Under the pieces are notes generated by a model. That model was given only the letters and a program-made list of their open reading frames with translations. It did not search any database and was not told the origin of the DNA. This document shows positions 3,160 to 52,491 of a stretch of DNA of 57,128 nt, one piece after another; positions within the stretch are counted from its first letter, which is position 1; each line of letters starts with the position of its first letter. This DNA is from a bacterium (GTDB taxonomy: Bacteria > Verrucomicrobiota > Verrucomicrobiia > Limisphaerales > UBA8199). The DNA lies in assembly GCA_021784555.1 (NCBI GenBank), contig JAJYHY010000006.1, positions 1 to 57,128 of the forward strand, given 5' to 3'. The position numbers were made by a program, and so were the translations under genes.

Positions 3160-4674
3160 ATGCCGCCCTCATTTTCTCAGACCCAAGCTGATCTCGATTC
3201 GGACGTCTTAGTTGAGACTCCTGAAGAGTCACTCCTGGACGCCGCTTCCGAGGGCAAATTGCTGCGTTTAGCGGTTCAAAGCTTGCTATTCGTTCTTGTT
3301 TGCGTATTCATCAAGCTGCCGCTGATCCCACTGGTCGTCTTGGGCTACTTTTTGTTGATCAAGGTCCGGTACCAGCTTCAGGCTTCGGACTTGTTGGTGC
3401 TTTGGCTCGTGGCGGTTCCATTCCTCGGGCCGTACATCACCATACATGTTGGGGGAGGCATTCCTGACATAACCTTCAGACGGTTATTTGTTTTACTGCT
3501 CCTGTTTACCGCCTTTTCAGGATGGGAAGGACGGGGGATTCGACTCTTATCAAATGGTCTCGATTATGCGTTGGTGTTATTCGTCGGGGCGGGCTTCCTG
3601 TCGATGTTTGGCTCAATCATGATACGCACACCATTGCGTGTGTTTCTGGACGCCTTGTTGATTCCCTGCGCATATTATTTCACAGGCAAGAGGTGTGCAA
3701 GTCGTCCTGGTTTTATGCCAAAGCTCTTTGTTGCCGGAGTTCTGGCGCTGCTTGCTCTCGGAGCGATCGGGACGTACGAGGGCATCAGCGGCCATGATGT
3801 GCTCCACTGGGAAGGTGCCAATACACATATGGCTGGCACTAGTGACTGGCGAGTGAATGGTCCTTGGGCCACTGCTGAAGCATACGGCACAGTCATGGTT
3901 ATGCTGCTCTTGTTCGTCAGCTTGCACAAAGATGTGTACAAAACCCAGCTTCTCCGAAAGCGATACGTTCGCCTCGCCATTCTGGCGGGCGTGGTAGCCG
4001 TCGCCTGCACACTCACACGCGGGATTTGGCTTGCGCTGCTCGCGGGGTGGTTGGTCTTCTACCTGCGCCGCAGTCCTAAATTGACCCTGAGTATTGCCGG
4101 GTTTACTGTGGTCCTTTGGCTGGTTCTACAGCAGGGAATACTCCCTCAGCTTTTCGGCGGTCTCTGGCATCAACGCATTGATCAGACAAAGACCATTTAT
4201 TCACGATTGGCGACGTACAAGTCGGCACTGGCAATGTTTGAAGACTATCCGGTTACGGGCGTCGGTTTTGACACATTTTCGGAAATGTGGGATCGTTTTC
4301 CTCGATACCGGTTTGAATATAATGGCGAGAGATCCGTTGACACACCTCACAATTTATTCCTGAGCATTCTGGCTGAAACGGGACTGGTCGGCTTCGGTGC
4401 CTTCCTGCTGCTTCAAATTCAGGTCTTTGCAAAGGCGTCTCGTGTAATCCGGTCCGCGCGCGAGAGCCTGGCGGCCCATAATGCTGAAGTGATGGTCGCC
4501 ATTGCCGTTGCTTTTCTCGTAGTAAGCCTTGACTTGGACTTCGCCTATAATGCGGACCTTGTCAACAAACTTTATTACCTTTTCTTGGGCGTTCTCTCTG
4601 GGCTGGCCGACAAGCCAAGGTGGGAAGCTCCCATTCAACAGTCGGACAATCGACGTGAAATTACAATTGCGTAA
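3160..4674 (+). CDS. O-antigen polymerase/ligase family membrane protein (Wzy/WaaL-like)
   Basis: 504 residues, mostly hydrophobic helices, with a large loop in the C-terminal half. After that loop comes the hallmark 'TPHNLFLSILAETGLVGF' near residue 395, the conserved Wzy_C/O-antigen ligase signature. A short acidic N-terminus (about 45 residues) precedes the first helix. Such proteins polymerise repeat units or transfer glycan from undecaprenyl carrier at the periplasmic face of the inner membrane. It lies between the sugar oxidoreductase and an adenylate-forming enzyme, and the flippase follows at 6.3 kb, as expected for a Wzx/Wzy-type pathway. Sequence alone does not separate polymerase from ligase. 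No clear ribosome site is seen before the ATG at 3160. Confidence 0.85.
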   Translation: MPPSFSQTQADLDSDVLVETPEESLLDAASEGKLLRLAVQSLLFVLVCVFIKLPLIPLVVLGYFLLIKVRYQLQASDLLVLWLVAVPFLGPYITIHVGGGIPDITFRRLFVLLLLFTAFSGWEGRGIRLLSNGLDYALVLFVGAGFLSMFGSIMIRTPLRVFLDALLIPCAYYFTGKRCASRPGFMPKLFVAGVLALLALGAIGTYEGISGHDVLHWEGANTHMAGTSDWRVNGPWATAEAYGTVMVMLLLFVSLHKDVYKTQLLRKRYVRLAILAGVVAVACTLTRGIWLALLAGWLVFYLRRSPKLTLSIAGFTVVLWLVLQQGILPQLFGGLWHQRIDQTKTIYSRLATYKSALAMFEDYPVTGVGFDTFSEMWDRFPRYRFEYNGERSVDTPHNLFLSILAETGLVGFGAFLLLQIQVFAKASRVIRSARESLAAHNAEVMVAIAVAFLVVSLDLDFAYNADLVNKLYYLFLGVLSGLADKPRWEAPIQQSDNRREITIA

Positions 4675-4677
4675 ACA

Positions 4678-4797
4678 AATTAGTGAATAGGCCTATGCGG
4701 TTGACTCTTGCTCATGCAGAAAACGTGATGCCCAACGCCCGAAAATCCGACCAAATCCAAACCTTACAAGAGTAAACCGCATAGGCCAATTAGTGAA
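4678..4797. repeat. Long hairpin flanked by 10-bp direct repeats (MITE-like)
   Basis: Arms at 4690-4710 and 4767-4787 are inverted copies (20 of 21 bases match), separated by 56 bases. The unit is flanked by the direct repeat AATTAGTGAA at 4678-4687 and 4788-4797, which resembles a target-site duplication. It occupies the gap between the polymerase and the next ligase gene, so its hairpin could also act as an RNA processing site or attenuator inside the operon. Confidence 0.75.
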
Positions 4798-4824
4798 AAC
4801 ATATGGGTATTACAAACGGCTGAC

Positions 4825-6219
4825 ATGAACCTTCTTAAGCGAGCGGCGAAGCGCGTCTTCTATAGGATCCCGATTCAATACCGGCACGGGCGGCGCTTCA
4901 GAAAAAGCTACCGTTTCGTGATGCAATCTCAATGGTGGAGCAATGCGGAACTCAGGGAATACCAAATGCGACAATTGTCTAGCCTGCTCCAGCACGCTTA
5001 CCAGCACGTCCCTTTCTACCAGCGCACGTTTGACGAGCACGGGATCAAGCCGCGGGATATTCATGATTTTGAGAGCTTCCAGAGAGTGCCGTTCCTCACC
5101 AAAGAAGACATTCGCCTGCACGCAGCCGAATTGAGCGCATCCAACATCCCGCGAGATCGCATGGAATGGGAGACCACCGGTGGCTCTACCGCTGAGCCGC
5201 TGGGTTTGTTTGTTGAACGGGGGAGTGGCGCGCTCCGGTTGGCACTCGAGTCAAGGCAATGGAACTGGATGAGGTTCGCATTTGGCGACCGGTATGTGGT
5301 CCTCCGCGGCGCCATTGTTGATGGTTGCGGATGGAGGAAGGAGAAAAGGTGGCAATTGGACCCGAAGCGCAACTGTCTTCTGCTGTCGACCTTTGATATG
5401 ACGCAGGACAATATTGCCGATTACGCCGCGATGATTGAGGAGTTCAGGCCAGCCATGATCCGAGGCTATCCATCGGCGCTCGAACTCTTCGCGAAATATC
5501 TTCGCGAAGTCGGCGGCACCATCAATCGAACTGGAGTGATTCGCAGCATCTCAAGCTCATCGGAAACGCTGTTTCCGATCCAGAGAAGGTTAATTGAAGA
5601 GACGTTTGGGTGTCCGGTGTTTGATTTGTACGGCAACGGGGAACTCGCGGGTAAGATGGGTGAGTGCGAGCGGCATGAAGGCTTCCACGATTTCATGGAG
5701 TTCGGCTATACGGAGATCCTTCATCGGAATGGGCTTGCCGTAAGTGAGGAAGGCGAAGTCGGCGAGATGGTGGTTACGGGATTCACTAACTACGCATTCC
5801 CCATCATCCGCTATAAGATCGGCGATTTGTGCCGATATACCTCCAAGACCTGCAGTTGCGGTCGTGGGCTGTCCCTGATTGGCGGCGTCCAAGGTCGCGT
5901 CCAGGAACTGGTCGTCGCCGAAGACGGCGGGCTGATTCCGCTGGGACCAGTGATCTTCGGTATCCATGACCCCGGCTGGCAGCGGGTCAGGCAGTTGCGC
6001 TTCGTGCAGGAGGTCGCGGGACGCTTGCGAATCGAGGTAGTAAAATCAGGCGGCCAAACCGATGGGGAGATGATTCATTACGTTCACCGACTTTTTGCTG
6101 AGCGGTTCAAGAGGCGGGTCCACTTGGACGTCCACGTCGTCAACAACATCGAGACGAGTGGTGCCGGGAAGCACAAATATCTGATCCAGAAATTGGCTGT
6201 CCCGCAGGTAGAGAATTAG
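4825..6219 (+). CDS. PaaK/CapK-like adenylate-forming enzyme (first copy)
   Basis: 464 residues related to phenylacetate-CoA ligases and CapK. It has the P-loop-like adenylation motif 'TTGGSTAEPLG' near 114-124, the 'YGNGE' adenine-site motif near 272, and a C-terminal 'GAGKHKY' catalytic-lysine region near 450. A pair of cysteines in 'CSCGRG' (near 350) is shared with the second copy at 22774. These proteins are frequent in capsule loci. The family chemistry is acyl-adenylate formation; here the acid and acceptor are unknown, perhaps an acyl or amino-acid decoration of the glycan. The ATG at 4825 follows the hairpin element. Confidence 0.85.
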   Translation: MNLLKRAAKRVFYRIPIQYRHGRRFRKSYRFVMQSQWWSNAELREYQMRQLSSLLQHAYQHVPFYQRTFDEHGIKPRDIHDFESFQRVPFLTKEDIRLHAAELSASNIPRDRMEWETTGGSTAEPLGLFVERGSGALRLALESRQWNWMRFAFGDRYVVLRGAIVDGCGWRKEKRWQLDPKRNCLLLSTFDMTQDNIADYAAMIEEFRPAMIRGYPSALELFAKYLREVGGTINRTGVIRSISSSSETLFPIQRRLIEETFGCPVFDLYGNGELAGKMGECERHEGFHDFMEFGYTEILHRNGLAVSEEGEVGEMVVTGFTNYAFPIIRYKIGDLCRYTSKTCSCGRGLSLIGGVQGRVQELVVAEDGGLIPLGPVIFGIHDPGWQRVRQLRFVQEVAGRLRIEVVKSGGQTDGEMIHYVHRLFAERFKRRVHLDVHVVNNIETSGAGKHKYLIQKLAVPQVEN

Positions 6220-6298
6220 ACTTCACCGGTCCTCGATTACAACCTTTCCGCTGCTGTGCTGGTCAAAGAAGATCGCGGCGCACGGAACCTGCGGCAGA

Positions 6299-7579
6299 AT
6301 GATTAGCGAAAACAGCACCTTCGCCCGAGGCACATGGGTTCTGGCGCAGCATTTCAGGAAATCGCGAGCCGCTCGGCAGACTTCCTACCTATATGCCGGA
6401 CAAATCATCGGGCTGGGCGTGGGTTTCGCGCTGAATCTCGTGAATACGCGGTGGCTGGGGCCTGCTGGATACGGCTTGTACGCCGCCACTTTCGCCGCGA
6501 GCGACTTTGTTACGATGTTCCTGAACTTCGGGTTTCTGCCCTCTGGCGCGCGGTTGTTGGCCTTAAAACAGGGAGCACCGGAGGAGCAGCGGCGCATGAC
6601 TGGCGCCCTCATCGTGGTCACGATCGGGTTGGTGATAGGGGCGGCGCTGGGCCTGTGGGGTGTCAGCTTTTTCGCAGAGCAACTGATTAATGCCAGAATT
6701 GGCCACCTGCTACGCTGGTTCTCGCTGCTCCTGGCGTTGCTGGTACTACAGACCCTGGTTGAATCCGCCTGCCGGGGAACGGGCCGCATCGAAGCGTTAT
6801 CGTTCTTCAATCTTTCATCGAAAGGGGTGGGTGTAGCCTTCGTAGGTTTGGCCATCGTCACAGGAACCTACAGTCTTCCGGTGGCAATCGGTGCCAGCCT
6901 CGCAGGTTCCCTGCTCGCCTCGGTGCATGTCCTTAACCTCTTGAATCCCCGTTTTGACAAATTGTCAGCCAGCGTCCATGAACTGTGGTTGGATGTGAAG
7001 CATTATGGATTCAAGGCCTACACGGGAGACATAGCTTCCTCTGCCGGGGCGCGGACCTACAGCTTGATTCTCGCACACTACGGAAATGTCACCGCTTTGG
7101 GTTATTACACCCTGGCAGGGCTGATCGTGACTCCAATGACGACGTTTTCGCGTTCGCTTGCAATGACCTTCTTCAGCCGGTTTGCAGTAATCAGGCGAAT
7201 TGCTTCGAAGGTGTGGACCGTTAACCTGGTTTGGCTCATCTCTTGTTTCGCGGGCGTGCTGCTCCTGGGAAGTCTTTTTGTTCACGTGATGTTCGGAGCG
7301 AAGTACAGTCCTGCGGCAGGGCTTCTGCCACTAGTCGCCTTTGCTGGCATCTTCAGTGGTTTGGCGGCCCCCATGAATAAGTTTTTGGCCGCGCATGGCG
7401 AAGGTGTGTATTTGCGGACTATCGCTCTGACGCTTTCCCTAATCAGCGTGGCTGCGGCTTTTGGCCTGATCCCTCGCTTCGGGGCGCTTGGGGCCTGTTA
7501 TGCGGCTGTAGTCAGCGCGCTCGCGAACTTCCTATTGCACCTACTATACTACCGCAAAACGGTGGAGGCTCTCCAATGA
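6299..7579 (+). CDS. Polysaccharide flippase, Wzx/MATE-like
   Basis: 426 residues with about a dozen hydrophobic helices and few charged loops, typical of the polysaccharide_synt/oligosaccharide flippase superfamily (MOP exporters). The N-terminal region 'TSYLYAGQIIGLGVGFALNLVNTRWLGPAGYG' starts near residue 27 and matches the family's first helix and the conserved 'RxLGPxxYG' turn. It would move lipid-linked repeat units across the inner membrane to the Wzy-like protein encoded at 3160. The stop overlaps the start of the next gene (ATGA at 7576), implying coupled translation. Confidence 0.88.
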   Translation: MISENSTFARGTWVLAQHFRKSRAARQTSYLYAGQIIGLGVGFALNLVNTRWLGPAGYGLYAATFAASDFVTMFLNFGFLPSGARLLALKQGAPEEQRRMTGALIVVTIGLVIGAALGLWGVSFFAEQLINARIGHLLRWFSLLLALLVLQTLVESACRGTGRIEALSFFNLSSKGVGVAFVGLAIVTGTYSLPVAIGASLAGSLLASVHVLNLLNPRFDKLSASVHELWLDVKHYGFKAYTGDIASSAGARTYSLILAHYGNVTALGYYTLAGLIVTPMTTFSRSLAMTFFSRFAVIRRIASKVWTVNLVWLISCFAGVLLLGSLFVHVMFGAKYSPAAGLLPLVAFAGIFSGLAAPMNKFLAAHGEGVYLRTIALTLSLISVAAAFGLIPRFGALGACYAAVVSALANFLLHLLYYRKTVEALQ

Positions 7580-9225
7580 TCTTGCTGATCGATGTTTCAG
7601 GCGATGCCCGCCGGGCTGCGGCGGCCTTGGCGGCGCGTGGGACACTACCGTCGCAAATTCTCGAGAGGAGAGACCTTAGATTGCAGGGCCTGCTGAGGCT
7701 TCTGAGAAAAATGCGGACGGCCCGACCGGTGGAATGTTATATCTTTTGCAGGCAGGTTGGAACTCAGTTTAATCGCTTTCCTTTGGTGTTGTTGGCCTCG
7801 CTAACCAAGGCTCGGAGAATCGCGTTTTGCGACGAAACCGAGGTCCAGCGTTTCGAATCTCCGACTGCCGCTGTGATAATCGGTACCCCGCTGTACTTGT
7901 GGCATTGGCTTTATGGGGCGTTGGCTATTATCGCTTTCTGGGTCGCTTTGGCGGCGGCCTGGTTATGGCTTAGGGTTATTCGGCACTCTGCGCCAACGTC
8001 TTCGTCCACCAGGCGACTTTGTTATATTAAGACTGATTTTTGGGGCGACTTGAGAGCCGGTGGATCGGTGACCCATACGCGCGAGTTCATCAACGCTGGC
8101 TGCGATATAGGATATGACATCAGCGTTTTTGCTTGCGACCCTCTCCGCCACTACCAACTCAAGACTGGCGTTCAGGTCATCCGGCCGGCACCGGGCCTAT
8201 ACGACCTGCCAATCTTCATTTCTCAAATGGAATATAATCTGCGCTTTCCAATAGCGGTATGGCGGAAATTGCGCCACACGCCGGTTGGCGGAGTTTATCA
8301 GCGCCACTCCAGGAATAACTTTAGTGGGGTTGTCTTGTCCATGCTGTTGAAAGTTCCGTTTCTCCTCGAACACAACAGCTCATCATCATGGATCGCGAAG
8401 AATTGGTCTGGGCAAAGAACCTCGTTTATTTCAAGCCTTTGCGAAAAGCTGAATTTCTTGGGAGCTTACAGGATTACTGTCGTCTCTGAAACGCTTAGAA
8501 AGGATCTGTTGTCGCGGCGGGTGGACCCTGCGAAGGTGATTGTGAACCCAAATGGCGTGGACCCGGTTCGCTTCGGGCCTCATGTGGATACTTCGGCAGT
8601 TCGTAATCATCTTCCCCAAGGCAAACTCTTGGTGGGGTTCATCGGGGTATTCGGCCAGTGGCACGGCGTGTTGACCCTGATGCGTTGCGTTAAATACGTT
8701 GTCAAAGGTTGTGACAATGCACACTTCGTCATCATAGGAGATGGTGCCCTGAAGCAGGAGATGATACGTATTCTCCAGCAGGATGACGTGCTTGAGCAGG
8801 TTACCTTTGCCGGCTTGGTCAAGCATGAGTTGGCGCCAGCTTATCTCAACGCTTGCGATGTGCTGGTTTCGCCGCATGAGGATATGGCGGATGGCTCTAC
8901 ATTCTTTGGCTCGCCAACCAAGATTTTCGAGTACATGGCCACGGGCAAGGGCATAGTTGCTTCCGACGTCGGTCAGCTCGAAGAGCTGCTGGACGATAGA
9001 CAGGATGCCCTGCTGGTCAGACAAAAAGACGAGGTCCAGCTCGCCGAGGCAATCGTCCGCCTGCTGCGCGATTCGGCTTTGCGCGAACGGTTGGGTTTCG
9101 CGGCTCGTCGAAAGGCAATGGCGGCCTTCACTTGGAGGCAGAATTATTGTCGTGCCCTCGGCCTGCCTCAGGAAAGCATTTCCAGCGACGTAGCGCTCTG
9201 TCTCGAGCAAGACAATCTCCGATGA
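7576..9225 (+). CDS. Family 4 glycosyltransferase with N-terminal membrane anchor
   Basis: 549 residues. A ~130-residue N-terminal extension with a membrane helix around 105-135 precedes a GT-B fold. The C-terminal half carries 'VGFIGVFGQWHG' (donor domain start), 'VIIGDG', and a late motif 'SPTKIFEYMATGKGIVASD' followed by Glu-Glu, matching the E-x7-E region of GT4 enzymes. It probably adds a sugar to the lipid-linked repeat unit at the cytoplasmic membrane face; donor and acceptor cannot be read from sequence. It overlaps the flippase upstream and the heparinase-like gene downstream by 4 bases each. Confidence 0.87.
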   Translation: MILLIDVSGDARRAAAALAARGTLPSQILERRDLRLQGLLRLLRKMRTARPVECYIFCRQVGTQFNRFPLVLLASLTKARRIAFCDETEVQRFESPTAAVIIGTPLYLWHWLYGALAIIAFWVALAAAWLWLRVIRHSAPTSSSTRRLCYIKTDFWGDLRAGGSVTHTREFINAGCDIGYDISVFACDPLRHYQLKTGVQVIRPAPGLYDLPIFISQMEYNLRFPIAVWRKLRHTPVGGVYQRHSRNNFSGVVLSMLLKVPFLLEHNSSSSWIAKNWSGQRTSFISSLCEKLNFLGAYRITVVSETLRKDLLSRRVDPAKVIVNPNGVDPVRFGPHVDTSAVRNHLPQGKLLVGFIGVFGQWHGVLTLMRCVKYVVKGCDNAHFVIIGDGALKQEMIRILQQDDVLEQVTFAGLVKHELAPAYLNACDVLVSPHEDMADGSTFFGSPTKIFEYMATGKGIVASDVGQLEELLDDRQDALLVRQKDEVQLAEAIVRLLRDSALRERLGFAARRKAMAAFTWRQNYCRALGLPQESISSDVALCLEQDNLR

Positions 9226-42006: not shown

Positions 42007-43062
42007 ATGACAAATGATCAATGCCCAATGCCCAATGAGAAACCCCGCTCAGCGGCCAGGCAATGGCTATGGGTGGTCTTGAGCTACGGCATAGCTGCCG
42101 GCTGCCTGTACTGGGTCTTTCACGGCATTCCTCTTCGTTCATTGCTTCATTCATTTGAGGGGGTGGAGTGGGAATGGATTGCGCCGGCGGTGGGGCTGGA
42201 TTTGGCGGTCTATTTCCTGGCGGGATGGGAATGGCAGTTGCTGTTGCGCTCGGTCGGGCGCCTGAGGCTGGTCCAGACCATCCAAGCGATCTTTGCAGGC
42301 CGTTTTGCGAATGACCTGCTGCCGGTGCATGTCGGCTACGTGATTCGGCTCTACCTGGCCTCGCGTTGGACGAACCGGAGCGTCGCCTCGGTAGTGCCTT
42401 CGTTGCTGGTCGAACGGTTCTTCGATTCGTTATGGCTGGCGCTGGGTATCGGCCTGACCGTCCTTTTCTTTCCGCTACCGGCGCGCTTTGTCCGGACGGG
42501 AGAGGGCCTTGGAGTTGGTATCGTATTAGGCGTCCTGGCGGTGACGGGGATAGTGCTGCGCCGCAAGAACCGTGCTGACGGTTCATGCCGTCCGATCTTG
42601 GGGCGTTGGAAGGTGTCGCGGAAGATTGGGGAGTTTGTGGGCAAGGTGGCTGACGGGATGCGGGGCATTGGGCGGCCAGATATGGTTTTGGCGGCGGCGG
42701 GGATTTCGGTGCTGAAGCTGATCGCCTTTGTGCTGGCATTTCTGATGCTCGTTTGGGCGTACGGATTTCAGTTTTCCGTCCGGACATTTCTGGCGGTTTT
42801 CGTCGTAGCTTATACTGGCCTCTCCATCCCGAGCACCCCCGCCAGCGTCGGGGTGTTTCAGTTGTTCTGTGTGGCCGGACTGAGGTTTTTCGGCGTTTCG
42901 AGGTCGGAGGCCGGCAGCTTTGCGCTGCTGGCCTTTGTCGTGCTCAACGCCCCACTATCGGTCGGTGGATTTGTGGCTCTGGCCCAAAGCGGCCTTTCGT
43001 GGCGGCAGATTCGCCAGCGGCTCCGCTCCTCTCACGACCTGAGGCCGCGCGCAGATTCCTGA
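42007..43062 (+). CDS. UPF0104/LPG-synthase-like membrane protein
   Basis: 351 residues with about eight membrane helices. 'IFAGRFANDLLPVHVGYVIRLYLASRW' and 'VPSLLVERFFDSLWLALG' are the conserved core of the lysylphosphatidylglycerol synthase transmembrane/AglD family, and 'IPSTPASVGVFQ' is its late signature. Such proteins act in lipid flipping or glycan transfer; the role here is open. The first ~12 residues (MTNDQCPMPNEK) are encoded by a piece of the ATGCCCAATG repeat. The 3' end overlaps the convergent gene at 42944 by 119 bases. Confidence 0.8.
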   Translation: MTNDQCPMPNEKPRSAARQWLWVVLSYGIAAGCLYWVFHGIPLRSLLHSFEGVEWEWIAPAVGLDLAVYFLAGWEWQLLLRSVGRLRLVQTIQAIFAGRFANDLLPVHVGYVIRLYLASRWTNRSVASVVPSLLVERFFDSLWLALGIGLTVLFFPLPARFVRTGEGLGVGIVLGVLAVTGIVLRRKNRADGSCRPILGRWKVSRKIGEFVGKVADGMRGIGRPDMVLAAAGISVLKLIAFVLAFLMLVWAYGFQFSVRTFLAVFVVAYTGLSIPSTPASVGVFQLFCVAGLRFFGVSRSEAGSFALLAFVVLNAPLSVGGFVALAQSGLSWRQIRQRLRSSHDLRPRADS

Positions 43063-44383
43063 TGATTTCTTCGTAGGCCCTTTGATCAAAGGCAAGATGG
43101 GCAGGGTCACAGTTTAGTTGTCCCTCGAAATTCGTAATCGTGCTGGTGGGAAGCACCACAATGGGCCAGGACACCTTCTCTTGGCCGCCCAGAATGACCG
43201 AGAGGCGCAGGCGGACGTGTTCGTCCCGGAATCGGGGTTCAAGGCTGGCGAGGTCGAATTTCGGCAGCCTGACTCGTCGAGAGGTCTTGATGAGGCGCGT
43301 GAAGCATTCGGTTTCCTGAAGCACACGGTCGCCGAGCAGGATGCGCCCGGTGTACTTGAAGAGCGTATTGGGAGCGGGAATCCCGCTCTCAATGCGGACG
43401 GAGGGCCAAAAGGCGGCGTGCTTGTCCCAGCGCAGGGCCCCAATCTGGCGCTCCACCCGGCCATCAAGGGTCTCTCCATACACTTCCACGGCGCCGGCTC
43501 TGACCTGCCCCAGCCATGCCCTCTGGGTAATGACCCGAAAGTTGAAGGTGGCGACGGTTCGTCCGCCGAGTGAGGCGGTGAGGCGGTACGAACCGGGGTG
43601 GGAACTCAATCCGAGGCTCTTGAGGGCAACAGGCGGTCCTTTGATACGGGTGGCGCCCCGGCCAAGTGTCGCCGGTCGCGGCTCCAGCGCCCGCCGCCGC
43701 TTGCCGGTCTCCAAAGTGAGCTTAAGGGTGGTGTCAAGGGGAGGCAGCACGGCGCTCAACTCGGTCGCGGGCACGGTGAATTCGGGAATAACGAAATCGC
43801 TCGTTTCGACCGCCACGTCGCTGAGACGCCAGTGGCCCCCGCTCTGAACCCACGTCCGCCGGTTCTCGGCCCGCGCGCTTTCCAGGCGCAACCTCTGAGC
43901 CGTCCCTTCATCGACGGCCTTGAGGGAGAGCCGCTTGAGCACCTGTCCCTTCTCTTTGTCGCGAATCTGAAACTCGACATTGCCTCGTCGGGCCAGAAGC
44001 CATTGCGGCAAGCGCACTCGAACGTGCGTGGTCCATCCGGTGGAGAACTGTTGGAGGCGACACCCCCCCTCTTCATGCGGCGGCGGGGTTTGGAATGGGA
44101 GGCTCCGGATGGGGATGGGCAAACTCCAGTGAAAACCACCGGACTGGCTAGAAAGGCCAAGTTCAAGACCTCCGCCCTCCCTGGTATGAGCCGCGAGGAT
44201 CGGCCAGCGCACGGTAAAGGCTATCTCCGTCTTGCCCGCCAGGTTCAAAAAGGCCCCCGGCAAGGCGAGTGAGCGATTCGCCCCCACCGAGACGCAATGG
44301 ATGTCCTCGATCTGCGTTTGGAAGAGCCGCCGCACCCAGCGTCCCGCTCGGCTCGCTACTCGGCTCAGAGCACCGGGCTTCAT
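42944..44383 (-). CDS. Unknown 479-residue protein coupled to the E1-like gene
   Basis: No family recognised. The ATG at 44383 overlaps the E1-like gene's stop (ATGA), so the two are translated together. No signal peptide and no membrane helix; an Arg-rich start (SRVASRAGRWVRRLF) precedes a largely beta-strand chain with alternating hydrophobics ('WTTHVRVRLPQWLLARRGNVEFQIRD', 'GSYRLTASLGGRTVATFNFRVI'), suggesting Ig-like or jelly-roll domains in tandem. The last ~35 residues (RAASGRERSGAAGES...) are low-complexity and overlap the convergent gene by 119 bases, so the original stop may be lost. Its position suggests a target, adaptor or effector of the conjugation system; this is inference. Confidence 0.7.
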   Translation of the reverse strand: MKPGALSRVASRAGRWVRRLFQTQIEDIHCVSVGANRSLALPGAFLNLAGKTEIAFTVRWPILAAHTREGGGLELGLSSQSGGFHWSLPIPIRSLPFQTPPPHEEGGCRLQQFSTGWTTHVRVRLPQWLLARRGNVEFQIRDKEKGQVLKRLSLKAVDEGTAQRLRLESARAENRRTWVQSGGHWRLSDVAVETSDFVIPEFTVPATELSAVLPPLDTTLKLTLETGKRRRALEPRPATLGRGATRIKGPPVALKSLGLSSHPGSYRLTASLGGRTVATFNFRVITQRAWLGQVRAGAVEVYGETLDGRVERQIGALRWDKHAAFWPSVRIESGIPAPNTLFKYTGRILLGDRVLQETECFTRLIKTSRRVRLPKFDLASLEPRFRDEHVRLRLSVILGGQEKVSWPIVVLPTSTITNFEGQLNCDPAHLAFDQRAYEEIIRNLRAASGRERSGAAGESAATKGRFGPEPQIHRPIVGR

Positions 44384-45279
44384 GGGGCTGAACGGGAGAT
44401 TACCGCGGGAGATTTCAAGCCGCGCAGGATTCGCTCCGCCTCCGCTTCAACTTGGGCCGGGGCCTCGCCGCATTCCAGGCAATCCGCCCGCTTGGACACA
44501 CTGAAGAACTCGCAATGCAGTGGCCGGGCAAAGGTCCCCGGCACGACGCGGTTGGCGAAAACGCACAGGTTCACCTCGGGCGGCAGACGGAGCAAGCTGT
44601 GCTCCTGGCCGAGGAGCAGATCCAGCGCCATCCGGCATTGAAGAAGGGCAATCTGCTCGATATCCAGGCTCAGAGCGCAAGTTGCCTGCCCCTCCTCGAC
44701 GCTTGGATTGCTGTAGTTCTGAGCCTGCCTCGAGTCGCGAGGCTGGTAACGAAGCTGAAGTTGCGCCGCAATGCACCCATAGCACGCCTTGCCGGGAGAG
44801 GCGCGGTAAACCTCTCCGCCGATTCCGCCGTCATACACCGCGGCGCCAATTTGCGGCAGGCGCAGGCGCAACGCCAGTTGGTTGATGGCATGTTTGCTGG
44901 GCTCGTTGTCGGTGCAGACGGCGATGAGGTCCGGACGCCGCTCCTCGAGGAGGCGGCCCAGGCGTCTTCCTTGCTCGACGGCATCCAGGGGCCAGGCGAT
45001 CACTCGCGCGCCAGGGTTCAGGTTCTGAATGTAGGCGGCCATCTCGGTCAGCTTGGGCTTTCCCAATGAACGGTAGCCCAAAAGATGGCGCACAATATTG
45101 TGTTCTTCGAGCAACTCGCCCGGTCGTTCGACCAGCAGTAACTGGATGCCTAACCGGCCCAGTTCAGCCGCCACGCGGCTGCCGCCTGAGCCCAAGCCGA
45201 TCACGGCCACGGTCTTTGATTCAAGGCCGCAGGTGTCGAGCAGATCGGCGATCCGCCGATAAAACTCATCCCTGTTCAT
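44380..45279 (-). CDS. ThiF/E1-like ubiquitin-activating family enzyme
   Basis: 299 residues from the ATG at 45279, with a GGAG upstream; a longer frame to 45414 runs through a palindromic repeat and is rejected. Residues 24-33 'VAVIGLGSGG' form the ATP loop. 'EEHNIVRHLLGYRSLGKPKLTEM' (58-80) holds the Asn/Arg and Lys76 region. Asp124 is in 'CTDN'. Zinc pairs lie at C166/C169 ('CYGC') and C267/C270 ('CLEC'). Cys201 ('ATCALS') is a candidate thioester cysteine. It would adenylate the C-terminus of a small modifier and pass it to the E2 domain encoded at 45843. There is no fused E2 or rhodanese domain. Confidence 0.87.
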   Translation of the reverse strand: MNRDEFYRRIADLLDTCGLESKTVAVIGLGSGGSRVAAELGRLGIQLLLVERPGELLEEHNIVRHLLGYRSLGKPKLTEMAAYIQNLNPGARVIAWPLDAVEQGRRLGRLLEERRPDLIAVCTDNEPSKHAINQLALRLRLPQIGAAVYDGGIGGEVYRASPGKACYGCIAAQLQLRYQPRDSRQAQNYSNPSVEEGQATCALSLDIEQIALLQCRMALDLLLGQEHSLLRLPPEVNLCVFANRVVPGTFARPLHCEFFSVSKRADCLECGEAPAQVEAEAERILRGLKSPAVISRSAP

Positions 45280-45321
45280 GAATCCGGTCTCCGCGAGGCC
45301 GAACCTCGGACGGTTTTCCCA

Positions 45322-45400
45322 TCTCATTGAGCATTGGGCATTACGCATTTGGCATTGCCAATGAATAATGGTAAATGCCCAATGCCTAATGGGAAATGCT
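45322..45400. repeat. Palindromic TTGGGCATT repeat, copy 1 (upstream of E1-like gene)
   Basis: The core 45352-45391 matches 47151-47190 at 39 of 40 bases in the same orientation, with a shared TCTCATTGAGCATT lead. The unit is itself an imperfect palindrome of ATTGGGCATT/AATGCCCAAT words. The remaining gap to 45571 is G+C-rich and shows no gene. Confidence 0.85.
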
Positions 45401-45571
45401 GCTGGATGCGCCACCGACGGCCTCGTTTTATGCGGCTTGCGATGTAGGACACGCCCCGCCTCACCTCACACGCCGCGCGGCGCGCGCCCAGGCTGCAAAG
45501 CGGCTGCGCGCGCTTGATGCACTCTGCCGCCGCCCTGGTCTCTCGCGCTGCCCTGTCTAGCCGCGCGGGGA

Positions 45572-45796
45572 TTAACTCCTTGCCGCTCCTGGCCGGTAGT
45601 GGCGCTGATAGCGCACCAGGCCGTTGGTGTTTTCGTTTGGAGAGATCAGGTCTTCGGGTTCGGGGCTGGTGATTCCCTCTTCATCCGGGTCGATAAACAC
45701 CGGTTGTTTTGCCTGCCCGGCAGTGTTGATGATCTCCTCCAACTCTGTCGCTCGCTCGAGATCCAAGGGCGCGAATTCGGGACATTCTGTTCTCAT
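45572..45796 (-). CDS. 74-residue protein; candidate modifier of the conjugation operon
   Basis: Preceded by a strong ribosome site (AGAAAGGAAAT before ATG at 45796), so translation is likely. The chain is acidic and Pro-rich with a single Lys (K30), and ends 'GLVRYQRHYRPGAARS'. It lies 46 bases after the JAB-E2 gene and before the E1-like gene, where a ubiquitin-like modifier gene is often found. A beta-grasp fold is not evident; the composition is closer to a disordered Pup-like protein, though no GG or GGE/Q end is present. Gly70 followed by a four-residue tail could be a JAB processing site. It may instead be an unrelated small protein. Confidence 0.6.
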   Translation of the reverse strand: MRTECPEFAPLDLERATELEEIINTAGQAKQPVFIDPDEEGITSPEPEDLISPNENTNGLVRYQRHYRPGAARS

Positions 45797-45842
45797 ATTT
45801 CCTTTCTATGTTGAGATTACGATCTGGTGAGATTGGTTTGGT

Positions 45843-46904
45843 TCATACTGGATAAAGCGGCTCCTCGTCGGCCTGATCGGGCCACTTGCCCAGGGTGAGA
45901 TAGACCAGCAAACAGGCAAACCACCGATGCGCGGCGGTAATGCAGACGGCCGCGGTATCTCTGGCCGGGTTCCACTCGCATTTTCCCAGGCGATTGGTCC
46001 AGCACAGCTCGTTGTCCTGCATCTGGTGCGGGGAACAGGGTAACGGCAGGAGACTGACAATGCGCGGCGGTTCCAGCGGATAGCGCCGCGGATAGCGCAC
46101 CTGGATCGGGAAGTGGCGTCCGCTCTCGACCACGACATATTCCCAGTAAAGATTATTGCCCTCCAGCCGGAGCGCCGCCCTGCCTCCATAGCGCTCCTCC
46201 ATGGCGCGCACCTCGGCTACCAGCCGCCTCTTGTCGTTGAGCAACCGGGGGCCCCAGGCCCAGTGCCGCTGTTCGCCCGTGGCGGTCACCGGGGAAAATG
46301 CCCCGCGCGGCTCGCCCGTTGTATGAATCAGGCCGATGTCCTTAACAACGGGCCGCACTGGCAGGTATTGATAGGCGGTCTCCTGGCCGAGAACGAAGAA
46401 ATCGAACTTGAAATTCTGGTAGGTGACGCTGAAGGGGCTGGGGCGCGGGTTGTCGATGGTGACAATGGCAAAGACCAGCGCCTTGGTGTCGGACGCGCTT
46501 ACCGCCTCCACGTCGGCCAGCCAATCGCCCTGGCTGCAAACGTCCATCTGGTCTGGGTGAACGTGAATGCACCCCATATTCCCGGCATTGGGATTGTCCC
46601 GGCGAATCAGGCCAAGGGTGCGCGCCTGGTAGTCCGCGTCAAAGAGCACACTCTCGGGCGAACAATCCGCGTTTGGCCCCGCTTCAATCAGGCCGCGGAT
46701 GCTAAAGACGGAGGCGCCATTCGCCTGGGCAAATTCCCCCACCAGCATGCCCCCGGTTTCGGTTTCCCTCCCGCGGGCCTCAAACACGCGGTTGGCATAA
46801 TCATAGAAGACCGCCGGCAGGTCCTTGGCCACGATGACCCCCGGATGAGCTGCCACGTCCCTTGCCGGCTCCGCGGCCATGCCTGTGCTCTGCTCCTCCC
46901 TCAT
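45843..46904 (-). CDS. JAB/JAMM peptidase fused to an E2-like (UBC) domain
   Basis: 353 residues from the ATG at 46904 (GTG at 46907 and an ATG at 46880, with GGAGGAG upstream, are alternatives). Residues ~20-170 are a JAB domain: E49 in 'ETGGMLVGEF', then H114-x-H116-x7-S124-x2-D127 in 'IHVHPDQMDVCSQGDW', a complete JAMM zinc site. Residues ~215-340 are E2-like: 'YPLEPPRI', then 'SPHQMQDNELCW' with His293 and the candidate catalytic Cys301, and 'WNP' (311-313) as in UBC folds. One polypeptide thus has both the deconjugase/processing and conjugation activities, unlike systems with separate proteins. The E1-like enzyme is two genes downstream. Confidence 0.86.
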   Translation of the reverse strand: MREEQSTGMAAEPARDVAAHPGVIVAKDLPAVFYDYANRVFEARGRETETGGMLVGEFAQANGASVFSIRGLIEAGPNADCSPESVLFDADYQARTLGLIRRDNPNAGNMGCIHVHPDQMDVCSQGDWLADVEAVSASDTKALVFAIVTIDNPRPSPFSVTYQNFKFDFFVLGQETAYQYLPVRPVVKDIGLIHTTGEPRGAFSPVTATGEQRHWAWGPRLLNDKRRLVAEVRAMEERYGGRAALRLEGNNLYWEYVVVESGRHFPIQVRYPRRYPLEPPRIVSLLPLPCSPHQMQDNELCWTNRLGKCEWNPARDTAAVCITAAHRWFACLLVYLTLGKWPDQADEEPLYPV

Positions 46905-47290
46905 CACAAGAGACTCTGGCTTGCGCGGTGCGCGCTGTATATTGGGGTGTTAACCCGAAACACCGCCCAGGTTGAAGCTACGCGGAGCGGTGCGAAACCG
47001 CTCAAGTCGAGCCCCGTCGGCACGGCGGGTGTCGCGGCGGCTTTTCGCGTCCGTGCCGGGAGCGTGAGGCCACTACCTCAGCTAGCGAGGGAGACCTCAG
47101 ACCGCTCTTCCCGTCTCATTGAGCATTTCTCATTAGGCATTGGGCATTTCGCATTGCCAATGAATAATGGCAAATGCCCAATGCCTAATGAAAAATGCCG
47201 CTCCGCGCGACTGAGGTGCAAATCGGTCCGCCCTCGCCGCAGATGCCGCAAAAGTTGACCTGTCCGCAACGTGTTTTGGAATTCAAGAGA
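46905..47290. repeat. Upstream region of the conjugation operon with palindromic repeats
   Basis: Copy 2 of the TTGGGCATT palindrome lies at about 47114-47200, and the TTGACCTGT repeat begins at 47254. Bases 46905-47110 should hold the operon promoter; no confident -35/-10 was identified. No gene is supported. Confidence 0.6.
47114..47200. repeat. Palindromic TTGGGCATT repeat, copy 2
   Basis: Same orientation and nearly identical core as 45322-45400. The two copies lie either side of the JAB-E2 gene and the 74-residue gene. A shorter related piece is at 42005-42036. Confidence 0.85.
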
Positions 47291-50187: not shown

Positions 50188-50943
50188 TTAAATCTTACCG
50201 CCACGTTGGAGACCGCAGTTCGGCCGGGGACTTACCGGCTGCGCCTCCTGGTCAAAGCAATCTCTCGCTGTACCTGGAAAGCCGTAAAACGTTTCACCCT
50301 CCGTATAACCCTCAATCAGCATCTGGCGCATGACCGTATCGTCCTCAAATACTCGCATCCAGATGCTGAAGAAGCCGGTTGCCTGGGCCGTTTTCACGAT
50401 TTGGCGGCGCATGACGACGGTGGGAGAAAAGGCCGAATCTCCTCTGGTGCTTTCGGCCATGAGCCAGACCTCCATTCGCTGGGCATACCGGTCAATAGCA
50501 ACAATCTTCCCATTTTCGTCTGCGATTTGGGCGGGCCCCTTGTCCAACCCTGTGAGGGCCAGCGTGTTCTCGGCCGTCTTCCTTGCCACACAGGCGTGGT
50601 CCAGGCCTTTGGAAGGAACAACTCTCCCGTCGGGCCGGTAATCGAAAGCCGCAGCAGTATTGTCACGGTCCGGGAGGAAAAAGGCCTCCAGCCGAACATC
50701 TTTGTCTTTCTTAGTGGAGTTGCAGTTAACGCAGGCGAGGAGAAAATTGTCCCACCTGTCCATGAGTCCGGGATAGCGGTTCTCATCTTTGGGCTGGATG
50801 TGTTCGACGGCGAGCTGCGTTGCGATGCGGCGCTCGCAGAAGGAGCAGGATGGTTCCAACCGGGCGACAAGGTCCGGAAAGGCGTCACGGTAGTCGGCGA
50901 AATCCTGCTGCTGCGGGCTTGGGCCACGGGTGATTGGGCGCAT
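50188..50943 (-). CDS. ptuB: PtuB-like HNH endonuclease (Septu system)
   Basis: 251 residues. 'MRPITRGPSP' opens like TIGR02646/PtuB proteins. The zinc-bound HNH core has C33-x2-C36, 'VEHIQPK' with His48, Asn66 in 'WDNFLLACVNC', and C71-x2-C74 followed by NSTKK. In Septu this nuclease works with the PtuA ATPase to degrade nucleic acid during phage infection. The ATG lies two bases after the ptuA stop, implying co-translation. No reverse transcriptase is near, so it is not part of a retron. Confidence 0.85.
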   Translation of the reverse strand: MRPITRGPSPQQQDFADYRDAFPDLVARLEPSCSFCERRIATQLAVEHIQPKDENRYPGLMDRWDNFLLACVNCNSTKKDKDVRLEAFFLPDRDNTAAAFDYRPDGRVVPSKGLDHACVARKTAENTLALTGLDKGPAQIADENGKIVAIDRYAQRMEVWLMAESTRGDSAFSPTVVMRRQIVKTAQATGFFSIWMRVFEDDTVMRQMLIEGYTEGETFYGFPGTARDCFDQEAQPVSPRPNCGLQRGGKI

Positions 50944-50945
50944 GG

Positions 50946-52340
50946 TCAGGCTTGCTGCGTAAGTTGGCCACCCGACGCTTGCTCCCCGTCTCTGCGGCTG
51001 CGGCGCCCCAGGACTGCCTGGCGTTTGATTTCCAGGAATGCCTGGAACGCCAGATTATCGGCATAGGGGGCCACTCCCGCAGCGAGCCTCTCCTCGTACT
51101 CCCGCAGCTTGTCCTCTGGCGCTTTCGCCGCCTCGTCCAAGGTCTCGAGATATTCCTTGGCGGCTGCGACCATGTTCTGGTATCGGTGGCCTACCTCGGG
51201 CCGCTGAACACCCATGAGTCCCCCGGCGATTTCTTCTATACCAAGATTGTCTAAATTCGGCACCGGCTGGCCCTCAAGCATGACCAACTCGCCTGGACGT
51301 AACGACTGGACAACGAAGGGCGAGTGAGTCGTGGCAACGAACTGAATGTTGGGGAAAGTACGTCGCAGGTCCTCAACCACACGGCGTTGCCATCTTGGAT
51401 GCAAGTGGACGTCAAGTTCGTCTATCAGGACAACGCCGGGAGAGAGCATTAGCACCTGAGAGGGGTCATTCGCGCCAGGATGACCGGGGCCAAGTAGATA
51501 GGAATTCAGAGTGATCGCCTTGATGGCGATGTCTGCGACCAGCGCCAACATCATGCGTTGGCCGGCGCTGAGATTGTAAAAGGGCTGCTGGGCTCCGGAG
51601 ATCGAGAGAACGATCTCCTTCAAGTCGCTGTCGTATCGGATGCCGTCCGCCCCTGGGATGCAATCCAGGACGGCTCGCTGGACCGCCCGGAAGCCTGGCC
51701 TTTGCGTACCCCTCTCCAGCGCAGCAGCGGTTTCGAACAGAAACCATTCGTTTGTGTCCCGGTCGCGGATCCGTGTGTCGAGGCAGTTCCTGTAGGCGTC
51801 GAACTGCTGTGCCCTGCGTCGGGCAGTTGGGCTGGGAGGTCTTTTGTTTGTGGGCAGCCAGACGCGGCCCGCTCCATAGTACGCGAGTACCGGCAGGGGC
51901 GCTCGATGCGCTTCGGCTTCCGCCAGCAGATGAAAGATTGCGGCTTCGGCTTCCCGCGCTTCCGCGTTCGTTGTGCGTGTTCCGCCCCTGCGAATCATCC
52001 GGGTCCAGCTCAGGCCGTCTGTGTCTCCAATGCGGCCCTGGGCGGTGATCCTTACTGGCAGGGCGGGTTTCCAGAAAGTGCGATCTCCCGCGTTGACTGG
52101 ATTAAGCCTGGCTTCCTCCTTCAAAATGTTGCGCCATCCGCTCCCGGGGGCACCCTTGTGCCAAAGCGCCACCGCCACCGCCAGGGCGTCCAAGGCGCTC
52201 GTTTTCCCCGATCCGTTGTCCCCGATCAGCAAGTGAAATGAACCTCGTTGGTTCGGCGGCGCGTCCCGGTTGCGGGGAAATTCAAGCTCGCGAGAGGCGA
52301 ATCCCTTAAAGTTCTCGATCGTTAGCCTATCTATTCTCAT
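50946..52340 (-). CDS. ptuA: PtuA-like AAA/ABC-type ATPase (Septu system)
   Basis: 464 residues from the ATG at 52340, just before 'RIDRLTIENFKGF', the usual opening of RecF/SMC-like ATPases; the longer frame to 52397 adds no domain. Walker A is 'GDNGSGKT' (40-47), the ABC signature is 'YNLSAGQRMMLAL' (~265), Walker B is 'GVVLIDELDVHLHP' and the switch His is in 'ATTHSPFVVQS'. The C-terminal ~100 residues are helical and charged. PtuA-type ATPases control the partner HNH nuclease. A stand-alone OLD-like or RloC-like ATPase is the alternative, but the HNH neighbour favours Septu. Confidence 0.83.
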   Translation of the reverse strand: MRIDRLTIENFKGFASRELEFPRNRDAPPNQRGSFHLLIGDNGSGKTSALDALAVAVALWHKGAPGSGWRNILKEEARLNPVNAGDRTFWKPALPVRITAQGRIGDTDGLSWTRMIRRGGTRTTNAEAREAEAAIFHLLAEAEAHRAPLPVLAYYGAGRVWLPTNKRPPSPTARRRAQQFDAYRNCLDTRIRDRDTNEWFLFETAAALERGTQRPGFRAVQRAVLDCIPGADGIRYDSDLKEIVLSISGAQQPFYNLSAGQRMMLALVADIAIKAITLNSYLLGPGHPGANDPSQVLMLSPGVVLIDELDVHLHPRWQRRVVEDLRRTFPNIQFVATTHSPFVVQSLRPGELVMLEGQPVPNLDNLGIEEIAGGLMGVQRPEVGHRYQNMVAAAKEYLETLDEAAKAPEDKLREYEERLAAGVAPYADNLAFQAFLEIKRQAVLGRRSRRDGEQASGGQLTQQA

Positions 52341-52491
52341 CGCATTCTGAGTGTAGTCCGACAGTGCCGCATTGTATCTACGAAAATGCCCGATCAAAAA
52401 CGCCGGTCAGTGGTGCGCGGCGAAGGGTGAACGCGCCAGAGGACTGCTGCGGTCCAGGCCGGGCGGACTCACCTCCGTGCCAGACCGTGGA

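Follow-up and report, generated by a model that had tools for sequence, protein, structure and literature searches.

Could a run of four bacterial genes constitute a complete ubiquitin-type conjugation system, and which of its products would then be the tag? The run lies on the minus strand of a 57,128-nucleotide stretch of the verrucomicrobial contig JAJYHY010000006.1 (hereafter the window), and encodes a JAB/JAMM peptidase fused to an E2-like domain (JAB-E2), a small protein of 74 amino acids (aa), an E1-like enzyme and a 479-aa protein whose longer homologues have internal repeats. An earlier reading of the DNA (the original prediction) had called it a ubiquitin-like conjugation operon, which is supported by homology of the JAB, E2 and E1 parts, by intact catalytic residues and by a gene order that is kept in other genomes. 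Judged by its sequence, this is a real, conserved and unusual conjugation module that would work like the cyclic oligonucleotide-based antiphage signaling system (CBASS) and Bil-type systems, arranged differently. The narrower reading, in which the four genes form a compact ubiquitin-type conjugation module with the small protein as its tag, stands in our estimate evenly balanced between right and wrong.

Three loci were compared, all of them verrucomicrobial: the window, L009 (genome G005) and L017 (genome G718). The gene content and the order (JAB, E2, small protein, E1, repeat protein) are the same in the three genomes, and because the neighbors stay together in two genomes besides the window's own, as the original prediction had expected, the four-gene cluster is more than chance. 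The L009 set consists of a fused JAB-E2, the small protein, the E1 and an 814-aa repeat protein, and the L017 set of a JAB, an E2, the small protein, the E1 and an 822-aa repeat protein; both JAB proteins begin with a membrane helix by hydropathy prediction (TM-JAB), while the window JAB has no N-terminal one. Identity to the window is 47% (L009) and 39% (L017) for JAB, 57% and 64% for E2, 49% to both relatives for E1, and 28% and 26% over ~300 residues for the repeat protein. The JAB-E2 fusion that featured in the original prediction is present in the window and L009, but in L017 JAB and E2 are adjacent, separate genes that share a reading frame and are divided by one stop codon plus 15 bases, and the fusion was therefore dropped as a defining trait. 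A literature search, which did not cover Burroughs 2011 as the likeliest earlier description, returned no paper with a hyphenated name for JAB/JAMM fused to E2/UBC.

The four open reading frames (ORFs) were recovered at the positions and on the strand first reported. H114/H116/S124/D127 of the JAMM motif and C301 of the E2 (counted from the ATG at 46904; H115/H117/S125/D128/C302 in protein P0001, which starts at the GTG at 46907) are present in the DNA, and the JAMM residues and the E2 catalytic Cys are invariant in 3/3 aligned copies. That the C-terminal half is UBC-like is borne out by sequence: the PADLOC E1-E2 profile matches the window copy at 3.2e-5 and the stand-alone L017 copy at 3.2e-7, and a 3-row profile matches solved UBC chains at 0.0021 at best. 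Pfam UQ_con matches the window copy at 0.009, under the curated cut-off, and for the L017 copy Pfam gave nothing at 0.1. For JAB, the window protein matches PADLOC JAB at 0.0014, the L017 protein matches Prok-JAB at 0.029 (under the cut-off), and the best solved structure for the 3-row profile is RPN11/PSMD14, a weak match (E 0.06); because these profile matches are weak, the JAB assignment is carried mainly by the JAMM motif. The AlphaFold2 model of JAB-E2 has a mean pLDDT (per-residue model confidence) of 48, with most of the E2 part below 55, and at that low confidence the E2 part is predicted as a helix, four strands and a C-terminal helix. A Foldseek search with this model gave 32 MPN/JAMM chains, 15 E2 chains and 3 others among the best 50 of 748 matches, sorted by title and chain length, with several proteasome, Npl4 and eIF3 chains presumed to be MPN; among the matches listed, none reaches E 0.001.

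The E1-like enzyme was matched by Pfam ThiF (6.9e-20) and by the PADLOC E1-E2 profile PDLC00855 (1.5e-25), and its 3-row profile matched solved UBA5 chains at 2.1e-14. Numbered from the ATG at 45279, GLGSGG, K76 and D124 are present in the DNA as first described, and the GxGSGG core, K76, D124 and both CxxC pairs, which had been proposed as zinc cysteine pairs, are invariant in 3/3. The invariant cysteines are limited to the four of the CxxC pairs. A further Cys, at position 246 of P0003, occurs in 2/3 copies, in a place that we take to be similar to that of the UBA5 catalytic Cys. The ORF opens at 45414, although the gene most likely starts at 45279, where the E1 proteins of the relatives begin; the stretch from 45414 to 45279 holds a short interspersed repeat.

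All three loci keep the small protein, and 22 columns of its alignment, in which the L009 copy was used minus its first Met, are invariant. Codon counts for the three pairs gave a proportion of nonsynonymous differences (pN) of 0.37-0.43 against a synonymous proportion (pS) of 0.86-0.95, which is saturated; the gene is thus under purifying selection and encodes a real protein. It follows JAB-E2 after a gap of 46 bases with AAAGGAAAT, a ribosome-binding-like sequence, directly upstream, and is separated from E1 by 292 bases that include the interspersed repeat. ORF lists for the three loci, with minimum lengths of 60, 70 and 45 aa, showed no other shared gene between the core genes, which leaves the small protein as the only short candidate modifier in that interval. 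Its AlphaFold2 model (mean pLDDT 56) has a helix at 13-29 (block pLDDT 73-80), a short hairpin and a disordered tail; a helix followed by two short strands would not be the beta-grasp order, a reading of low confidence. No meaningful beta-grasp match was found in Pfam or among solved structures, the window protein (P0002) and P0011 had no Pfam match at <=0.1, and the small-protein profile retrieved nothing meaningful among solved structures and, at E<=0.1, no additional copy from the loci compared. The window protein ends RYQRHYRPG-AARS, and in 3/3 copies the C-terminus carries RYxRHY and later a Gly with 3, 4 or 5 residues behind it. As a Gly occurs at -4 to -6 in 52/207 stop-to-stop frames of at least 150 aa from four loci, the near-terminal Gly in 3/3 copies is suggestive only, and weak when taken alone.

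The 479-aa protein, whose start overlaps the E1 stop codon by 4 bases, gave no hit in Pfam, NCBIfam or PADLOC at E<=1, and its 3-row profile matched no solved structure; the L017 homologue matched DUF6941 at 0.0011 over 41 residues, under the cut-off. In an alignment of the two long homologues, 3/28 segment pairs exceeded 60% hhalign probability (best 92%, E 6e-7), and the offsets of 134, 137 and 268 residues indicate internal repeats of ~134-137 residues. By eye, the protein may be a beta-rich scaffold or target. The predicted 479-residue ORF stands, with the qualification that its last 35 residues, which overlap a convergent gene (42007-43062), lie beyond the point where the proteins of both relatives stop. 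The latter end in Leu, and the window protein ends, 35 residues further on, in Arg. The convergent gene, which the 3' end overlaps at 42944-43062, encodes an LPG_synthase_TM protein. The window's genome has a second, truncated repeat-protein gene (154 aa, 69% identity) on a different contig (L010, 13457-13918). As neither E1 nor E2 nor JAB matched significantly within 20 kb of that contig, this C-terminal fragment was rejected as a second copy of the system.

At the relatives, the module is part of a larger set. By tblastn, each of the 11 L017 genes tested was matched in L009 (3.4e-9 or better), and 5/11 were matched in the window. The additional genes (Table 1) encode a CHAT protease, a HerA-like ATPase, a nuclease-like protein and three others. 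CHAT proteases are caspase-like. The block of ATPase, Cys-rich, nuclease-like and CHAT genes is linked to the conjugation genes at L017 12352-17948 and L009 342-8237, and a serine recombinase adjoins the L017 set. In the window, the distance from JAB-E2 to an upstream Septu pair is 3.3 kb. Given this pair and the CHAT, HerA-like and recombinase neighbors at the relatives, a role in defense appears likeliest.

Few matches were obtained across the genome samples, which overlap, and the four-gene system is thus rare. The JAB-E2 query found matches in 2/146 genomes of relatives, one of them the window's own, and in 3/387 genomes of the phylum, namely the window's own and two weak matches (G286 and G289) that were rejected as chance, as they fall in or across other kinds of gene with no E1 or JAB beside them by eye. 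The repeat-protein query found 2/58 relatives' genomes and the small-protein profile 2/320 genomes of the order (in both cases the window's own and G005), while the JAB-E2 profile found 2/365 genomes of the class (its own and G718). The E1 profile matched 1/11 genomes of the order of G718 at 1e-30 and 4/387 phylum genomes at 1e-20; three of the latter are distant (G277, G193 and G171) and hold differently built JAB/E1 loci, by eye and by weak BLAST matches, that were not accepted as members. In a further class sample, the CHAT query matched 1/295 genomes at 1e-60, G718 itself. Outside the phylum, the search comprised pattern-limited scans and plasmid searches. A first contig scan with a single protein as query returned nothing; a second, with two peptide patterns, returned 1 locus among 49 candidate stretches, on contig DIXK01000101.1 of Verrucomicrobia subdivision 3 bacterium UBA6082, which was taken to be the same as G005:C66. 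Scans of viral contigs with two peptide patterns each for JAB-E2 and E1 returned nothing.

The biochemical steps and biological role that we infer for the module would run as follows. The JAB domain would cut the 74-aa protein behind the Gly downstream of RYxRHY, removing its short tail, and the E1 would adenylate the exposed C-terminus. The acyl group would pass to the E2 cysteine of JAB-E2, directly or via an E1 cysteine, and the E2 would attach the small protein to a target, perhaps the neighboring repeat protein or a foreign protein. The JAB domain of the same polypeptide could later remove the tag, so that writer and eraser would be one molecule. Precedents for steps of this kind are Cap2 and Cap3 of CBASS and the trimming of BilA by BilC, both described below. 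In the 11-gene version of L009 and L017, the module would be coupled to the HerA-like ATPase, the nuclease-like protein (assigned by eye) and the CHAT protease, and the set of TM-JAB, ATPase, nuclease-like protein and CHAT fits a defense system with a proteolytic effector. The full proposal is an E1-E2-JAMM cascade with a short, Pup-like, non-beta-grasp modifier that is trimmed to a Gly and handled by one bifunctional JAB-E2, the complete 11-gene form being a mobile defense system with a HerA-like ATPase and a CHAT effector. We advance it tentatively, and would sooner expect some part of it to fail than all of it to hold.

Several points weigh against a conjugation module with the small protein as its tag. 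As encoded, the small proteins end in Arg or Ser, and in CBASS changing the terminal Gly of cGAS to Arg or Ser abolished conjugation (PMC10097602); trimming of the small protein is thus a required step of the prediction. An E1 thioester is doubtful because a non-CxxC Cys occurs in only 2/3 copies. The JAB matches to curated profiles are weak, and the structure models of JAB-E2 and the small protein are of low confidence. Six genes common to L009 and L017 have no counterpart in the window, no ATPase or CHAT homologue was found at 0.001 in the window's genome (87% complete), and, the system being rare, its conservation rests on three loci.

The locus is of the broad prokaryotic E1/E2/JAB kind (Iyer 2006), in that E1-like, E2-like and JAB proteins are encoded together with intact catalytic residues. 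None of rows 6a-6e, as given in the available part of that paper, fits a locus in which JAB and E2 are fused or separate, the E1 is separate and no ubiquitin-like protein (Ubl) was found. CBASS Cap2/Cap3 (Iyer row 6b) likewise has E1, E2 and JAB, and PDLC00855 ranks first among the PADLOC matches of the E1 as well as of the E2 here. Type II CBASS, however, has an E2-E1 fusion (Cap2), whereas the E1 is separate in 3/3 loci, and no CD-NTase match was obtained in the four window proteins, five flanking proteins or the L017 proteins scanned; with neither an E2-E1 fusion nor a CD-NTase among the operon proteins, the locus is not CBASS. The E1 also matches the E1 part of 6A-MBL cap2_3 (NCBIfam NF058523) at 3.1e-8, with 32.6 bits against a curated cut-off of 320 bits; to go by its name, this would be the protein of Iyer row 6a, described there as an E2-E1-JAB fusion. 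BilABCD likewise has four genes with E1, E2, JAMM and modifier. In its description (PMC11354881), BilA has two beta-grasp domains and is trimmed to its Gly by BilC, BilD has two adenylation domains and a Cys domain, and BilB has a CEHH motif. Here, in contrast, there is one ThiF stretch in ~300 aa, and the residues after the E2 Cys do not fit CEHH (C-x5-E-x-H-x4-H) in the alignment; by these features the locus is not Bil, and no beta-grasp domain was found either. The original prediction that known systems use other domain arrangements therefore holds for CBASS and Bil by the features tested. As to Bub, the E1 profile matches BubCD (9ea4 and others) at 0.0009. Bub systems have beta-grasp Ubls, oxyester intermediates and an unrelated, non-JAMM protease; set against this background, the conserved JAMM motif and E2 Cys here argue against Bub.

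Two further comparisons concern the effector and the tag. FtsH-ternary Ubl systems are JAB, E1 and E2 operons with a caspase-like protease effector (Kaur 2020; PMC7159879). They differ in a Ubl-E2 fusion, a RING E3 and vWA-MoxR/FtsH parts as described there, none of which was identified in the proteins scanned here. Pup is a short, helical, largely disordered modifier, and in this the small protein resembles it; there is no sequence match, and activation here would be of the E1/E2 type, not the PafA type.

Among 21 outside proteins compared, the closest JAB and E2 are those of a Mesorhizobium plasmid locus (L018, NZ_CP080523.1), the only plasmid record matched by JAB-E2 (JAB part, 3e-5). It differs in having two E2-like genes, a separate JAB, a metallo-beta-lactamase (MBL)-like gene (by eye) and a patatin. 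At 3964-8870, a 57-aa protein ending in LGGEY precedes E2, with ThiF, JAB and patatin also encoded; one of the E2-like proteins has a Phd/YefM-like start, and the MBL-like protein has no Pfam match. Kinship of the window's small protein with the 57-aa protein was not supported (no match at 0.05). When the Mesorhizobium small protein and JAB were searched against plasmids, that plasmid alone was returned; a plasmid search with the L017 E2 gave nothing but a Sphingobium E2/E1-associated protein (0.04) and missed L018. As a lead, short non-Ubl modifiers may be a wider theme.

The alternative that survives best is a ubiquitin-type system with another tag, either the C-terminus of the repeat protein, in the manner of cGAS in CBASS, or a beta-grasp Ubl from a gene elsewhere in the genome; the small protein would then be an adaptor or cofactor of E1 and E2. 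In CBASS, Cap2 conjugates a non-beta-grasp protein through a C-terminal Gly or Ala, the site at which Cap3 cleaves (PMC10097602), a precedent for an operon protein of that kind with the right C-terminus as modifier. The conserved stretch of the repeat proteins forms the end of the L009 and L017 proteins, and the E2-like protein of a distant locus (L028) has, ahead of the E2-like part, a helix and a VxVxPxGxI stretch that by eye vaguely resemble the small protein. The repeat proteins, however, end in Leu or Arg with no terminal Gly or Ala, and the conserved Arg-rich, Gly-containing tail sits on the small protein; we consider this alternative unlikely. Rather improbable is that the window copy is a decaying, non-working remnant of the 11-gene system despite its open ORFs. 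The absence of 6/11 L017 genes from the window and of the ATPase and CHAT genes from its genome would fit such decay, as would the repeat element between the small gene and E1, the last gene running into a convergent gene and the truncated repeat-protein gene on another contig; yet the catalytic residues are intact, and the small gene retains the invariant residues at 45-47% identity. A MccB-like pathway, in which the E1 would adenylate the small peptide toward a small-molecule or peptide product rather than a protein conjugate, is very improbable. The E1 profile does match MccB (2.2e-6) and the substrate would be a short peptide, but UBA5 is the better match (2.1e-14) and MccB pathways are not known to need an E2 or JAB.

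Positions of the features in the window, and the additional genes of the relatives, are collected in Table 1. The interspersed repeat, which has self-complementary parts, occurs inside and around the operon. Two further loci were noted by eye: L028 (1971-4631) encodes JAB, E1 and an E2-like protein, with the helix and VxVxPxGxI stretch near the start of the latter, and L029 (5968-16645) encodes a 58-aa ORF, JAB, E2, E1 and further large proteins on one strand, and may be another large conjugation-linked system.

Table 1. Features of the conjugation locus and its surroundings (window coordinates) and additional genes at the related loci
Feature	Position	Strand	Basis
JAB-E2 fusion gene (353-354 aa)	45843..46907	-	ORF, translation; relatives P0005, P0009, P0010
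JAB/JAMM peptidase domain, E...H-x-H-x7-S-x2-D intact	46317..46838	-	Motif invariant in 3/3; PADLOC; profile; Foldseek
E2 (UBC-like) domain, catalytic Cys and His 8 residues before Cys	45867..46244	-	PADLOC, profile, model, Foldseek
74-aa small protein, candidate modifier	45572..45796	-	Kept in 3/3 loci; selection; AlphaFold2 model
E1-like adenylating enzyme, single ThiF domain, two CxxC pairs	44380..45279	-	Pfam ThiF, profile, relatives
479-aa repeat protein	42944..44383	-	Homologues P0008, P0013; internal repeats in long homologues
PtuB-like HNH nuclease, Septu pair	50188..50943	-	PADLOC PtuB 6e-71
PtuA-like ATPase, Septu pair	50946..52397	-	PADLOC PtuA 2.7e-108
Short interspersed repeat, between small gene and E1	45332..45400	.	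91.7% identity over 60 bases to 47071-47200 copy
Interspersed repeat copy upstream of JAB-E2	47071..47200	.	
Interspersed repeat, partial copy	42020-42042		
Additional gene: CHAT protease	L009, L017		Pfam CHAT 8.1e-37; PADLOC BovA 1e-11
Additional gene: HerA-like ATPase	L009, L017		PADLOC mad8 1.4e-9; Pfam DUF87 0.027, under cut-off
Additional gene: 161-aa protein, nuclease-like by eye	L009, L017		No Pfam or PADLOC match
Additional gene: Cys-rich protein	L009, L017		
Additional gene: 391-aa protein	L009, L017		DUF4384 0.0041, under cut-off
Additional gene: 73-aa membrane protein	L009, L017		

If the cascade does use the short, Gly-trimmed small protein as its modifier, E1/E2/JAMM machinery would need no ubiquitin fold, beyond CBASS too, and writer and eraser could be a single polypeptide. 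Such a cascade could, moreover, be coupled to a CHAT protease and a HerA-like ATPase, which would bear on the origin of ubiquitin signaling from bacterial conflict systems.

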